This document shows, piece after piece, positions 5,010-32,180 of a DNA stretch of 32,275 bases; position 1 is the first letter of the stretch; every line of letters begins with the position of its first letter. The notes beneath the pieces were generated by a model that had not been told where the DNA came from, did no database searches, and saw only the letters and a list, made by a program, of their open reading frames with translations. Origin of the DNA: Lysobacteraceae bacterium (GTDB taxonomy: Bacteria; Pseudomonadota; Gammaproteobacteria; Xanthomonadales; Xanthomonadaceae); contig JAIXVL010000274.1 in assembly GCA_027483045.1 (NCBI GenBank), positions 1 to 32,275 on the forward strand. The letters are read 5' to 3'. Position numbers and translations under genes: made by a program.

Positions 5010-5435
5010 ATGTCTCGCGCCGATTTCTACCTGATCGACAAGCCTCGTTTCCGCGAGCAGCCCTTGCTGCTCGTGTGCGAACTGGCAAAGCGTTGCGAAG
5101 CCACCGGCAAGGGCACTTTGGTCTTGTGCGACTCGCAAGCACAGGCTGAAGAGTTGGACGACCTGCTGTGGTCCTTCGAAGAGGACAGCTTCATCGCGCA
5201 CCAGATCGCCGGCTCGGAAGATCAGGAAGAGGACGTGCCGGTGCTCATCGCGGCGCCAGGAACGGATGTGCCGCTCCGCCCGCTCGTCATCAACCTACGA
5301 GCAGCCCCAGTTGCCGAAGGTTTCGAGCGCGTCCTTGAAGTTGTTCCCGCCGATGCAGCGGCACGTGTGCCGCTTCGCGAGCGCTGGAAGCAGTACCAAG
5401 CGCGAGGCTTGGCACTGCACAAACACGATATGTAG
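5010..5435 (+). CDS. holC: DNA polymerase III subunit chi
   Basis: Chi bridges the clamp loader (through psi, HolD) and single-stranded DNA-binding protein at the replication fork. The 141-residue protein is close to the E. coli length (147). It shows the family start (ADFYLIDKP, for F-Y-L) and the central Leu/Trp-rich patch DDLLWSFEEDSFIAHQ. It sits directly behind pepA as in many gammaproteobacteria, but the usual next gene valS is absent and a convergent small exported protein follows. The ATG is preceded by CCCGCCCTCCTCTC, with no Shine-Dalgarno sequence, so its translation may depend on pepA translation or on the hairpin just upstream. Confidence 0.9.
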   Translation: MSRADFYLIDKPRFREQPLLLVCELAKRCEATGKGTLVLCDSQAQAEELDDLLWSFEEDSFIAHQIAGSEDQEEDVPVLIAAPGTDVPLRPLVINLRAAPVAEGFERVLEVVPADAAARVPLRERWKQYQARGLALHKHDM

Positions 5436-5438
5436 ACG

Positions 5439-5837
5439 TTAGCCGCCGCGTCGCGCGGCTTTGGCTTGTTCCTGCATCTGACGGCGTGTACGGCATACAC
5501 GCGTCATCCGGTTGCTACCGATTTCCTTCTCGCGAGTGCACACAGGCCTATCCAACTGTGCGTCGGTCATCAAGGCATCGATCTCGCCGACCAAGGCGAC
5601 GGCTCGCGCGTCAGCTTCCAAGCCACCTGCGGGATTAATCCCCGCCAACTCCTCCTGCAGGGCCGCAATCTTTTGCCTATGGCCACGCTGCACGTAATCG
5701 AACTCACCGCTCTTGAGTTTCTTCACCACCGCCTCTTGGCTGGCCTGAGCCTGAGCCACGGTGGCGACCTCTGAAGCCAACGCCGCGGGGAATTGCACAC
5801 ACACAAAAAGGCCGAGGGCCAGGCAAGCAAAACGCAT
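5439..5837 (-). CDS. Small exported protein with paired-Cys GSNR motif
   Basis: The 132-residue product begins with a clear signal peptide (hydrophobic MRFACLALGLFVCV, cleavage predicted after Ala-Leu-Ala-Ser near residue 22). A charged, probably helical middle (about 30-95) leads to a C-terminal element PVCTREKEIGSNRMTRVC, in which Cys100 and Cys115 flank a Gly-Ser-Asn-Arg core and may form a disulphide in the periplasm. I recognise this element as recurrent in small secreted proteins of xanthomonads but know no function for it. ATG 5837 is chosen over an ATG 18 bases upstream because GGAG lies at good spacing before it. It lies 88 bases downstream of pepP on the same strand and nearly touches convergent holC. 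Confidence 0.72.
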   Translation of the reverse strand: MRFACLALGLFVCVQFPAALASEVATVAQAQASQEAVVKKLKSGEFDYVQRGHRQKIAALQEELAGINPAGGLEADARAVALVGEIDALMTDAQLDRPVCTREKEIGSNRMTRVCRTRRQMQEQAKAARRGG

Positions 5838-10834: not shown

Positions 10835-10842
10835 GCAGGCGC

Positions 10843-11028
10843 GTCCTCTGCTGTGCTCGACAGCGTGCGCTAACATTTCGCCTTGACCCATAAAAACGGC
10901 CCGGGAGTACAGCTTCATCGCTGGTGTGCATGTCCGCCCTGTTGCGGAAAGCCTAAAGGCGATGACTGCATTCCCACTTGATCCCTCTGGATCAAGGTCG
11001 TTACGTACGCATCGGCATGGCGGAGGAC
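10843..11028 (+). ncRNA. ssrS: 6S RNA
   Basis: 6S RNA mimics an open promoter and sequesters sigma-70 RNA polymerase in stationary phase. The 186-base span lies between zapA and fau, the standard gammaproteobacterial location, and is nearly the length of the E. coli RNA (184). The 3' half aligns by eye with E. coli 6S: the GGTGTGCATG block near 10923, GAAAGCCTAAA at 10947-10957, CATTC at 10969-10973, and the hairpin CTTGATCC / GGATCAAG (10977-10996), which forms eight perfect pairs. The closing helix pairs 10843-10856 with 11015-11028 over 14 continuous pairs including G-U. Exact ends are inferred from this helix. Confidence 0.9.
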
Positions 11029-11034
11029 GTTTAC

Positions 11035-14015: not shown

Positions 14016-14090
14016 TGGCAGCCCGTGATGGATTCGAACCACCGAATGCCTGAGTCAGAGTCAGGTGCCTTACCGCTTGGCTAACGGGCT
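14016..14090 (-). tRNA. tRNA-Gln (anticodon CUG)
   Basis: The 75-base gene, with encoded CCA, folds into a full cloverleaf: acceptor AGCCCGT / ACGGGCT, D arm with AAGCGGTAAGG, anticodon stem CCTGA / TCAGG with loop CTCTGAC (anticodon CTG), and T arm GGTGG-TTCGAAT-CCATC. It closely resembles E. coli tRNA-Gln, including discriminator G. It begins 26 bases after the rpsI stop on the same strand with no evident promoter of its own. Confidence 0.97.
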
Positions 14091-30060: not shown

Positions 30061-30947
30061 ACACGACCCTGCCGCCGCGTGACCTCGCTCTGGTCACGCT
30101 GGTGTGTGTGGTCTGGGCCATCAACTTCCTGACCTCGGCCTTTGCCCTGCAGGAAATTCCGCCGCTCTTGTTTACCGGCCTGCGCATGGCGGTGCTGGCC
30201 GCGATCCTTTGGCCGTTTTTGAAGCCCGCCGCACCCGGCCAATGGCCGCGCCTCATCGCCATCAGTTTCGGTTTGGGCACCATCCACTTTGGCCTGAGTT
30301 TTTGGGCGCTGAAGTTGGCCGGTGACTTGGCCTCGCCGGCCATCGTGATGCAGAGCTATGTGCCCATGGCCGCCGTGCTCGCGTGGTGGCTGTTGGGCGA
30401 ACGCTTCGCGTGGCGAACGGGCCTCGCGATTGCGGTGAGTTTTGCCGGCGTGCTTGTGCTGGGCTTCGACCCGCTCGTGCTCGATCGCCCCGAATCACTG
30501 CTGATGATGCTCAGCTCGGCATTCTTTCTGGCGCTGGCGACGGTGCTGATGCGCGGCTTGAAGGGCCAAACCCTGTGGAGCCAGCAGGGCTGGCTCGCTC
30601 TGATCAGCGTCGGCCCCCTGCTTGGGCTCAGCGCGGTGATCGAAGGGCCACTGATGAATTCGCTGAGTCAGGCGACCTGGATCGGTTGGAGTGGCGTGCT
30701 GTACTCCGCGTTGATCTCTTCTCTGCTCGGGCATGGCCTGTACTACACCTTGGTGCAACGCCATCCGGTGGCGCTCATCACGCCGTACTTGCTCACGGCG
30801 CCTTTGCTCGCCGTAGGTCTGGGTGTGATGTTCTGGGGTGACCGTCCCGGACCCAAACTTTGGATCGGCGGCGCCATGGTGCTCGGAGGCGTGTTGGCCA
30901 TTGCCTTGCGCGGCTGGCAGAAGCAAAGAGCCGCGCGGCTGGCCTAG
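30057..30947 (+). CDS. EamA/DMT family transporter
   Basis: The 296-residue protein has ten predicted membrane helices in two EamA repeats (about 8-135 and 148-285), with typical VVWAINFLTSAFAL, the first-repeat end AVSFAGVLVLG and the second-repeat end GGAMVLGGVLAIALRGW. It is likely an inner-membrane exporter of amino acids or metabolites; the substrate cannot be deduced. The TTG start at 30057 overlaps the previous stop codon (TTGA) and begins just before the first helix. Confidence 0.88.
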   Translation: MNTTLPPRDLALVTLVCVVWAINFLTSAFALQEIPPLLFTGLRMAVLAAILWPFLKPAAPGQWPRLIAISFGLGTIHFGLSFWALKLAGDLASPAIVMQSYVPMAAVLAWWLLGERFAWRTGLAIAVSFAGVLVLGFDPLVLDRPESLLMMLSSAFFLALATVLMRGLKGQTLWSQQGWLALISVGPLLGLSAVIEGPLMNSLSQATWIGWSGVLYSALISSLLGHGLYYTLVQRHPVALITPYLLTAPLLAVGLGVMFWGDRPGPKLWIGGAMVLGGVLAIALRGWQKQRAARLA

Positions 30948-30964
30948 CCAGCACGGGGCTTTTT
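30938..30964 (+). terminator. Possible terminator after the EamA gene
   Basis: GCTGGC-CTA-GCCAGC (30938-30952) includes the EamA stop codon and is followed by ACGGGGC and five Ts (30960-30964). An alternative shorter stem, AGCC / GGCT, lies right against the T-run. Termination is plausible but not strong. Confidence 0.42.
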
Positions 30965-31007
30965 CACCCATCCATCACTCTTTGCCGTTACCATCTACAT
31001 ACGACTG

Positions 31008-31133
31008 CGGGCCCCTCTGGTCGTGCGCAATGCACGGCGATGTCGGAGTCGAGTACCGATGCATAGGCCCGTAGAACTGTTTTCCGCTTAGCGGGCCCGG
31101 TATCGATCCCAACCCTAGCTTTCGGAGTGTCCG
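31008..31133 (+). promoter_or_regulatory. Structured leader of terC with competing stems
   Basis: Between the EamA gene and terC lie 186 bases without a gene. CGGGCC (31008-31013) can pair with GGCCCG (31066-31071), enclosing two hairpins: GTCGTGC / GCACGGC (31020-31038) and TCGG / CCGA (31043-31059). A second CGGGCC (31092-31097) can pair with the same GGCCCG, which would break the first stem. The terC ribosome site GGAG (31124-31127) is itself within the small palindrome CGGAGTGTCCG (31123-31133). This is the layout of a riboswitch-like switch. E. coli alx has a manganese yybP-ykoY element, but I do not see its conserved GGGGAGUA core here. Confidence 0.45.
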
Positions 31134-32180
31134 ATGGAACTGTTAACCGGCCTATGGCTCGGTATGCCTGTTTGGATTTGGCTCGCCTTTTTGGGCGCCG
31201 TCCTTGCCATCCTTGTTTTCGATCTTGGCGTGCTTCACAAGGAAGCCCACGAGATTGAGGTGAAGGAAAGTCTGTGGATGTCGGCGCTCTACATCGGTCT
31301 TGGACTGCTGTGGGCTGTGGCCGTGTGGTGGATTTACTACTACCACGGCGGCGATAAAGCCATCGACCCACAAATCGCACTTCTGCCCACCGCTGAAGCC
31401 AAAGCTTGGGAAGCAGTGAAGCTGTACATGACCGGCTATCTCGTCGAGAAAGCCCTGGCCATGGACAACGTGTTCGTCATCTCGATGATCTTCACGTACT
31501 TCGCAGTGCCGCGCATTTATCAGCACCGTGTGCTGTTCTGGGGCATCTTGGGCGTCATCGTGCTCCGCGCCATCATGATCGGCTTGGGCGCCGCGCTGGT
31601 GATGAACTTCGCGTGGATCCTGTACGTCTTTGCCGTGGTCTTGATCGCCACCGGCGTGAAGATGCTCTACTCCATTGATGATCAGCCGGACATCGAGAAC
31701 AACAGAATCCTGAAGTTCTTGAAGGGCCGCATGCGGCTCACCAACGAACTGCATGGCGAACGCTTCTTCGTGAAGCAGGCCGACACGACCGGCAAGGTGC
31801 TGTGGTTCGCGACGCCGCTGTTCCTTTGCTTGTTGCTGGTCGAAATCGCCGACGTCGTGTTTGCGATTGACTCGGTGCCGGCCATCTTCGCGATCACGCC
31901 TGATCCGTTCATCGTCTACACCTCGAACATCTTCGCCATCCTCGGCCTGCGCGCCCTGTACTTCGCCCTCGCGGCGATGGTGCATCGCTTCCACTACCTG
32001 AAGTACGCGCTGGCTTTCGTGCTGATCTTCATTGGCGGCAAGATCTTCGTGGGCGATTTGTTCTTCGACGGAAAAGTGCCGGCCGAGATCAGCCTGATCG
32101 TCACCTTCGGCCTGCTGTTCGGCGGTGTGGTGTACTCGCTTTGGAAGTCGCGAGATACCGAAGCGCCTCGCCAAGCCTAA
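31134..32180 (+). CDS. TerC/Alx family membrane protein
   Basis: The 348-residue inner-membrane protein has about nine helices and the TerC signatures: LVFDLGVLHKEAHEI (residues 27-41), YLVEKALAMDNVFVISMIF (about 102-120) and LLLVEIADVVFAIDSVPAIF (about 233-252) with conserved acidic residues in the membrane. Family members (Alx, TerC, YceF/YkoY) are linked to manganese export, including metalation of secreted enzymes. The soluble loop at about 185-220 (DIENNRILKFLKGRMRL) is typical of Alx-type members. The gene is monocistronic, between a structured leader and a strong terminator. tellurite resistance genes are not nearby. Confidence 0.92.
   Translation: MELLTGLWLGMPVWIWLAFLGAVLAILVFDLGVLHKEAHEIEVKESLWMSALYIGLGLLWAVAVWWIYYYHGGDKAIDPQIALLPTAEAKAWEAVKLYMTGYLVEKALAMDNVFVISMIFTYFAVPRIYQHRVLFWGILGVIVLRAIMIGLGAALVMNFAWILYVFAVVLIATGVKMLYSIDDQPDIENNRILKFLKGRMRLTNELHGERFFVKQADTTGKVLWFATPLFLCLLLVEIADVVFAIDSVPAIFAITPDPFIVYTSNIFAILGLRALYFALAAMVHRFHYLKYALAFVLIFIGGKIFVGDLFFDGKVPAEISLIVTFGLLFGGVVYSLWKSRDTEAPRQA

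Follow-up and report, generated by a model that had tools for sequence, protein, structure and literature searches.

The terC RNA leader

The window, by which we mean the whole 32,275-nt stretch of DNA analysed, encodes at 31134–32180 on the forward strand a TerC/Alx family membrane protein of 348 aa (Pfam TerC, 6.4e-50; NCBIfam TIGR03718, 382.9 bits against a cut-off of 246.4). Upstream of this gene the sequence reads CGGGCC at 31008–31013, GGCCCG at 31066–31071, a second CGGGCC at 31092–31097 and the palindrome CGGAGTGTCCG at 31123–31133; the elements from which a riboswitch-like leader had originally been predicted are thus real and correctly placed. Elsewhere the window holds a 6S RNA (10842–11030, + strand, 108 bits) and a tRNA gene (14019–14090, − strand, 64.1 bits). 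All leader elements described below lie on the + strand.

A search of Rfam with cmscan identifies the RNA at 30999–31055 as ‘terC RNA’ (RF03067), a cis-regulatory family; the score of 44.1 bits exceeds the gathering threshold, 39.9, and the alignment covers the full model (positions 1–59 of 59). No other Rfam family reaches gathering level within the terC leader, and the source genome (2.8 Mb in 313 contigs) has this single RF03067 match. From the end of the match at 31055 to the TerC start at 31134 the distance is 78 nt, on the same strand. In the cmscan alignment the 5′ strand of helix P1 (31004–31010) pairs with 31043–31049, with one G.G mismatch (31007/31046); the conserved core GCCCCUCUG follows at 31011–31019, then hairpin P2 at 31020–31038 (31020–31026 with 31032–31038), and at 31039–31049 the conserved GAUG of the internal loop together with the P1 3′ strand UCGGAGU. 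The leader is therefore a copy of a catalogued RNA, and the suggestion that it might represent a new class falls. Its first CGGGCC lies inside this candidate aptamer.

The yybP-ykoY manganese riboswitch is associated with TerC/Alx genes, and the protein family downstream (TIGR03718, named R_switched_Alx) is common to both settings, so that the leader could be imagined to be that riboswitch or a divergent relative of it. Its model RF00080, however, finds nothing in the window at the gathering threshold, nothing in 30700–31300 when E-values up to 10 are admitted and nothing in the 2.8-Mb, 313-contig source genome, the last in a search whose control was positive in 5 of 14 known genomes, while RF03067 matches at full length. 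We reject this identity as very improbable; the view that the leader does not resemble yybP-ykoY, for which an Rfam search had been proposed as the check, is borne out. terC RNA reportedly first came out of a 2017 comparative screen. Search listings and the opening lines of abstracts in the open-licence literature gave no ligand or function for it, and it looks like an orphan motif.

Within the taxonomic family of the source genome, 14 leaders share the organization described in the next section. Their core GCCCCUCUG is invariant, two P2 pairs are changed on both sides with pairing retained, and the block of GAUG and P1 3′ strand has one column with T instead of G in 3 of the 14. Constancy of the core in the leaders L013–L131 is by construction, because the core was part of the search pattern that collected them.

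Two pairings of one GGCCCG

The comparison took in 21 leaders. Fifteen are from the same family, including L170 and L171, which score below the Rfam cut-off, and 14 of these share one architecture; the exception, L167, is a short leader, and the leaders from other families (L003, L004, L012, L132, L133 and L134) also lack it. L012, L132 and L167, whose start codons were wrongly placed in this comparison, entered no family count. In the 14 leaders GGCCCG is invariant, starts 27 nt after the start of GAUGUC (28 in L135) and is the only invariant block longer than one base downstream of P1. It belongs to a strand, 31056–31074 in the window, that can serve either as invader of the aptamer or as the 5′ arm of a hairpin, P3.

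P3 joins 31057–31062 to 31100–31105 and 31066–31071 to 31092–31097, its 3′ arm (31092–31105, which we call the rescuer) containing CGGGCC at 31092–31097 and GUAUCG at 31100–31105. The second of the two pairings originally proposed is thus present, and the hairpin is longer than had been stated. At positions −13 to −10, −8 to −4, −2 and −1 relative to GGCCCG at least two Watson–Crick pair types occur among the leaders, position −8 showing G-C, C-G and U-A. Since the arms were fitted by each leader's own best duplex, the pairing itself is by construction, and a swap test provides the independent control: in nine of the 14 leaders, hand-picked to drop near-duplicates, own arms average −21.3 kcal/mol and swapped arms −17.7 (permutation p ~0.0008). 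The signal lies in the sum and not in each row, because the arms of L011, L135 and L170 placed fourth or lower when set against the regions of the other leaders, and among the nine arms the 3′ region of the window came sixth. Covariation, which had been proposed as a check on both pairings, thus favours P3.

The alternative partner of GGCCCG is the CGGGCC of the aptamer. In the window this gives a 9-bp helix (31005–31013 with 31066–31074) beside a second hairpin at 31042–31060, in which GUCGG (31042–31046) pairs with CCGAU (31056–31060). Folding of 30997–31075 returns a three-way junction in which the 9-bp helix closes around two hairpins, as had been read from the sequence. RNAalifold on the 14 leaders also yields the anti-aptamer stem as the consensus. 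No variation occurs at the six CGGGCC:GGCCCG pairs among the same-family leaders, so covariation speaks neither for nor against this pairing; the eighth pair of the stem is broken in 9 of 14 leaders and the ninth in 3 of 14. In L135, L170 and L171, all of one genus, GUCGG carries U in place of a G and the partner strand a matching A, which may be a single event. The case for the anti-aptamer pairing therefore rests on invariance, on the folding course and on weak parallels in other clades.

These data bear on a rival explanation, that terC RNA is genuine and P3 only an independent stabilizing or insulating hairpin; P3 would then be what preserves GGCCCG, whose complementarity to the aptamer would be a chance match with no exchange in cells. 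In favour of this, P3 pairs in 11–14 of the 14 leaders at every GGCCCG position and covaries, and the anti-aptamer stem has no covariation within the family. On the other side, the P3 positions outside GGCCCG vary with compensation and the six bases of GGCCCG never do, and complementary sites recur in other clades, where formal tests give weak to moderate results.

Among those clades, L012 has an 11-pair complementary run adjoining the start codon, and several leaders whose downstream part starts GCATCGAG place GCCCGG or GCCCGT opposite CCGGGC or ACGGGC. Anti-aptamer covariation in leaders of this type is suggestive only (30 of 40 possible pairs in 10 leaders, p = 0.083, with 7 further leaders that have no GCCCG in range left out of the test). 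Complementarity to the 5′ core strand of the aptamer is raised over a set of 168 leaders, comprising the distinct leaders with at least 70 nt downstream and five family leaders: 31 reach p ≤ 0.05, and the mean z is 0.73, against 0.12 for a reversed-strand control and 2.02 in the 14. A duplex-energy test is weak in the 64 terC leaders whose start lies no more than 150 nt from the aptamer: the mean z is −0.49, and 9 of the 64 have p < 0.05. As a separate observation, the core of L127 reads CAGGGCCCC, a variant form, and is followed closely by GCCCTGATC, which complements it perfectly over 9 nt; this may be a chance match to the pattern.

Folding course and access to the ribosome site

When the window's leader is folded at increasing transcript length, the lowest fold holds the aptamer up to 31068, the anti-aptamer stem from 31071 to 31104, and the aptamer together with P3 from 31107 to 31122. 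For transcripts ending at 31074–31089 the anti-aptamer state is ahead of the aptamer by 10–11 kcal/mol; for those ending at 31107–31122 the two states are 1.1 kcal/mol apart, with the aptamer ahead. From 31125 a third fold is lowest, 3 kcal/mol under the aptamer state at 31125 and 1.5–3.5 at the later lengths folded.

The same course, from aptamer to anti-aptamer to aptamer with P3, is predicted in all 14 leaders, for which the length series ends 14 nt short of the start codon. Until GGCCCG is made, the aptamer is disfavoured by 0–4.6 kcal/mol (L135 has the 4.6, and no other leader exceeds 1.6); the gap then climbs to a maximum of 8.0–15.5 and falls to a later minimum of 0–1.3 in every leader; in L011, L135, L166, L170 and L171 it rises again at the end, to 1.9–4.0. 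This recovery is equalled by 0–4 of 100 spacer shuffles in 13 leaders and by 15 of 100 in L005. Opening alone is not unusual, being equalled by 1–71 of 100 shuffles, and that opening is common in GC-rich shuffles is a further point for the insulating hairpin; its counterpart is that the opening rises as GGCCCG is made (partly earlier in L135) and then recovers, a sequence of events that shuffles rarely reproduce. On balance we regard the insulating hairpin as unlikely. The claim that the leader has two mutually exclusive pairings is supported by the conserved GGCCCG, the compensation in P3 and this open-and-recover folding; with the RF03067 match, the two pairings also uphold the broader prediction of a riboswitch-like leader upstream of terC.

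These calculations are thermodynamic and the leaders compared are related sequences. Folding energies are also limited as proof, because other folds win once gene sequence is included: with 60 nt of gene added, all 14 leaders have an unconstrained fold 0.5–7.5 kcal/mol lower than the aptamer state, which also lies above the anti-aptamer state in 11 (the exceptions are L001, L007 and L169). A larger set of 69 leaders, made up of the 64 terC leaders with at most 150 nt from aptamer to start and five family leaders, was used for P1 probabilities and for the effect of forcing P1. Unconstrained P1 probability reaches 0.4 in only four of the 69 (L001, L019, L086 and L124); the window's leader is among the four, at 0.83 with 30 nt of gene. 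The generally low P1 probabilities and the folds that include gene sequence would fit a switch whose aptamer depends on a ligand for closing.

The likely Shine–Dalgarno sequence, CGGAGT at 31123–31128, is assigned by position. The palindrome around it, CGGAGTGTCCG, had been noted from the sequence; it is present in the window but is not conserved in relatives, which read for example CGGAGTAATTC and CGGAGTTCCTC, and we reject it as a conserved part. The heptamer TCGGAGT at 31122–31128 repeats the P1 3′ strand (31043–31049), a repeat that by eye is common to 8 of the 14 family leaders and absent from the other 6. Accessibility of the ribosome site does not change in a consistent direction from one state to the other across the 14 family leaders. 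Nor, in nine representatives, does the freed 3′ arm of P3 prefer its own ribosome site and early reading frame (own mean −18.8 kcal/mol, all pairs −19.2, p = 0.72). In 30850–31250 there is no consensus promoter and no terminator-like site, which leaves intrinsic termination unsupported.

A more direct output would be sequestration of the Shine–Dalgarno sequence by the aptamer core, CCCCUCUG acting as an anti-Shine–Dalgarno so that the aptamer frees the ribosome site (translational ON), with P3 an accessory. In the predictions, forcing P1 opens the ribosome region in 23 of the 69 leaders (an opening above 0.1) and closes it in 3. The effect favours such an output in the leaders with short spacers, where 15 of 28 open by more than 0.1 and one closes, against 27% opening and none closing in 45 control genes (p = 0.011). 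The Shine–Dalgarno sequence of L014, L092 and L164 reads GGAGGGGC, complementary to GCCCCUC, and the window's lowest fold to 31133 pairs CUCUG with the Shine–Dalgarno CGGAG and CGGGC with the adjoining GUCCG. Leaders with long spacers, the window's type, show no clear excess, however (8 of 41 open and 2 close, against 9% and 5% in 58 control genes; p = 0.14), and the swap test of the aptamer strand against the ribosome site and early reading frame is flat (p = 0.67, nine representatives). The window's own prediction depends on length, too: P1, probable with 30 nt of gene, is absent from the lowest fold with 60 nt. For the present leader we consider direct sequestration possible but improbable.

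Gene context, proposed switch and known systems

Our preferred reading of the terC RNA leader is a candidate riboswitch that would control the TerC/Alx gene by means of a strand-exchange platform, and we give this a probability of about 0.58. Mutually exclusive, conserved pairings link the aptamer to a downstream strand, the anti-aptamer stem itself being without covariation. In the proposed mechanism, P1, P2 and the GCCCCUCUG/GAUG core, which make up the aptamer, would fold first. The switching strand, 31056–31074, would then open it, GGCCCG taking CGGGCC and CCGAU taking GUCGG. Once made, the rescuer strand, 31092–31105, would recapture the switching strand into P3, allowing the aptamer to re-form. 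A ligand that stabilizes the aptamer would favour the aptamer with P3; in its absence the leader would stay in the anti-aptamer or some other fold. The computations show membership of the RNA family, conservation, covariation of P3 and, as far as the ribosome site, the order of the predicted energies. From these we infer that a ligand would bias the choice of fold and thereby terC expression; that control is exerted at translation or early elongation is a guess, made because no intrinsic terminator was found. A compensated, conserved hairpin that lies beyond the Rfam model and is able to trade strands with the aptamer points concretely to a switch, and the strand-exchange model supplies defined strands to mutate.

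RF03067 matches occur in 12 of 60 relatives and 6 of 8 genus genomes, in 15 of 395 family genomes (13 of them over the cut-off), 11 of 398 genomes of the order, 1 of 369 of the class (the window's own) and, at the level of the phylum, 64 of 398, with 63 over the cut-off; the window's genome is part of every count, the samples share members, and filters were stricter in the larger searches. Two genomes of the same genus, G003 and G005, have no terC RNA match. Five matches in one genome, G1070 (L157 and four other places), suggest a regulon. A DNA pattern finds at least 119 stretches in genome records, and among the 80 matches listed with titles 71 bear alphaproteobacterial names and 6 the name Pseudomonas, by reading. 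L117 has two terC RNA motifs ~350 nt apart (~5351–5746), a possible tandem, and the motif match in L057 lies on a contig labelled as an Oscillospiraceae MAG, where mis-binning or transfer is possible.

By tblastn, TerC lies within 1.5 kb behind 75 of 166 collected motifs. The other 91 motifs gave 86 ORFs of at least 70 aa and, in five cases, none; ORFs were picked by length and codon composition, not annotation, and the family counts that follow are rough because this choice was automatic. Pfam assigns the 86 ORFs to TerC (25), DUF475 (17), YegS-type lipid kinase (11), TerB (6), Tim44 (5), Bax1-I, DUF4112 and zinc ribbon (4 each), NhaA, Na/Ca exchanger, peptidase M48 and DUF2076 (2 each) and to families found once, including an MnhE-type antiporter subunit. 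MntP, Nramp and UPF0016, which are manganese-riboswitch partners, are not among the 18 Pfam families listed behind the motifs. The list suggests which signals to test first. It also invites a wider and distinctly tentative reading, which we think the less probable outcome, that terC RNA constitutes a functional class of riboswitch, separate from yybP-ykoY, which runs through three timed steps (aptamer, then obligatory anti-aptamer, then P3 rescue) in this lineage, relies on direct anti-Shine–Dalgarno pairing elsewhere, and senses ion or pH imbalance across the membrane; the last element is proposed because lipid kinase, TerB, NhaA, Na/Ca exchanger and MnhE-type ORFs stand beside TerC and DUF475.

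With the Rfam terC RNA model the window's leader shares P1, P2, the core and the position upstream of a TerC-family gene. The 59 positions of the model reach as far as 31055, whereas the switching strand and P3 (31056–31105) lie outside it. The leader thus carries a lineage-specific candidate platform that is new relative to the model; listings of the open-licence literature, a scope outside which the founding paper falls, gave no description of such a platform. The yybP-ykoY riboswitch is likewise tied to TerC/Alx family genes, through NCBIfam names of the form R_switched_* and otherwise as general background, and differs in that the window's leader does not match its model RF00080. The E. 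coli alx leader is a member of yybP-ykoY. It reportedly responds to manganese and to pH (PMC9603457). Like the putative switch in the window it controls a TerC/Alx gene, but it does so with an aptamer of a family other than the window's terC RNA.
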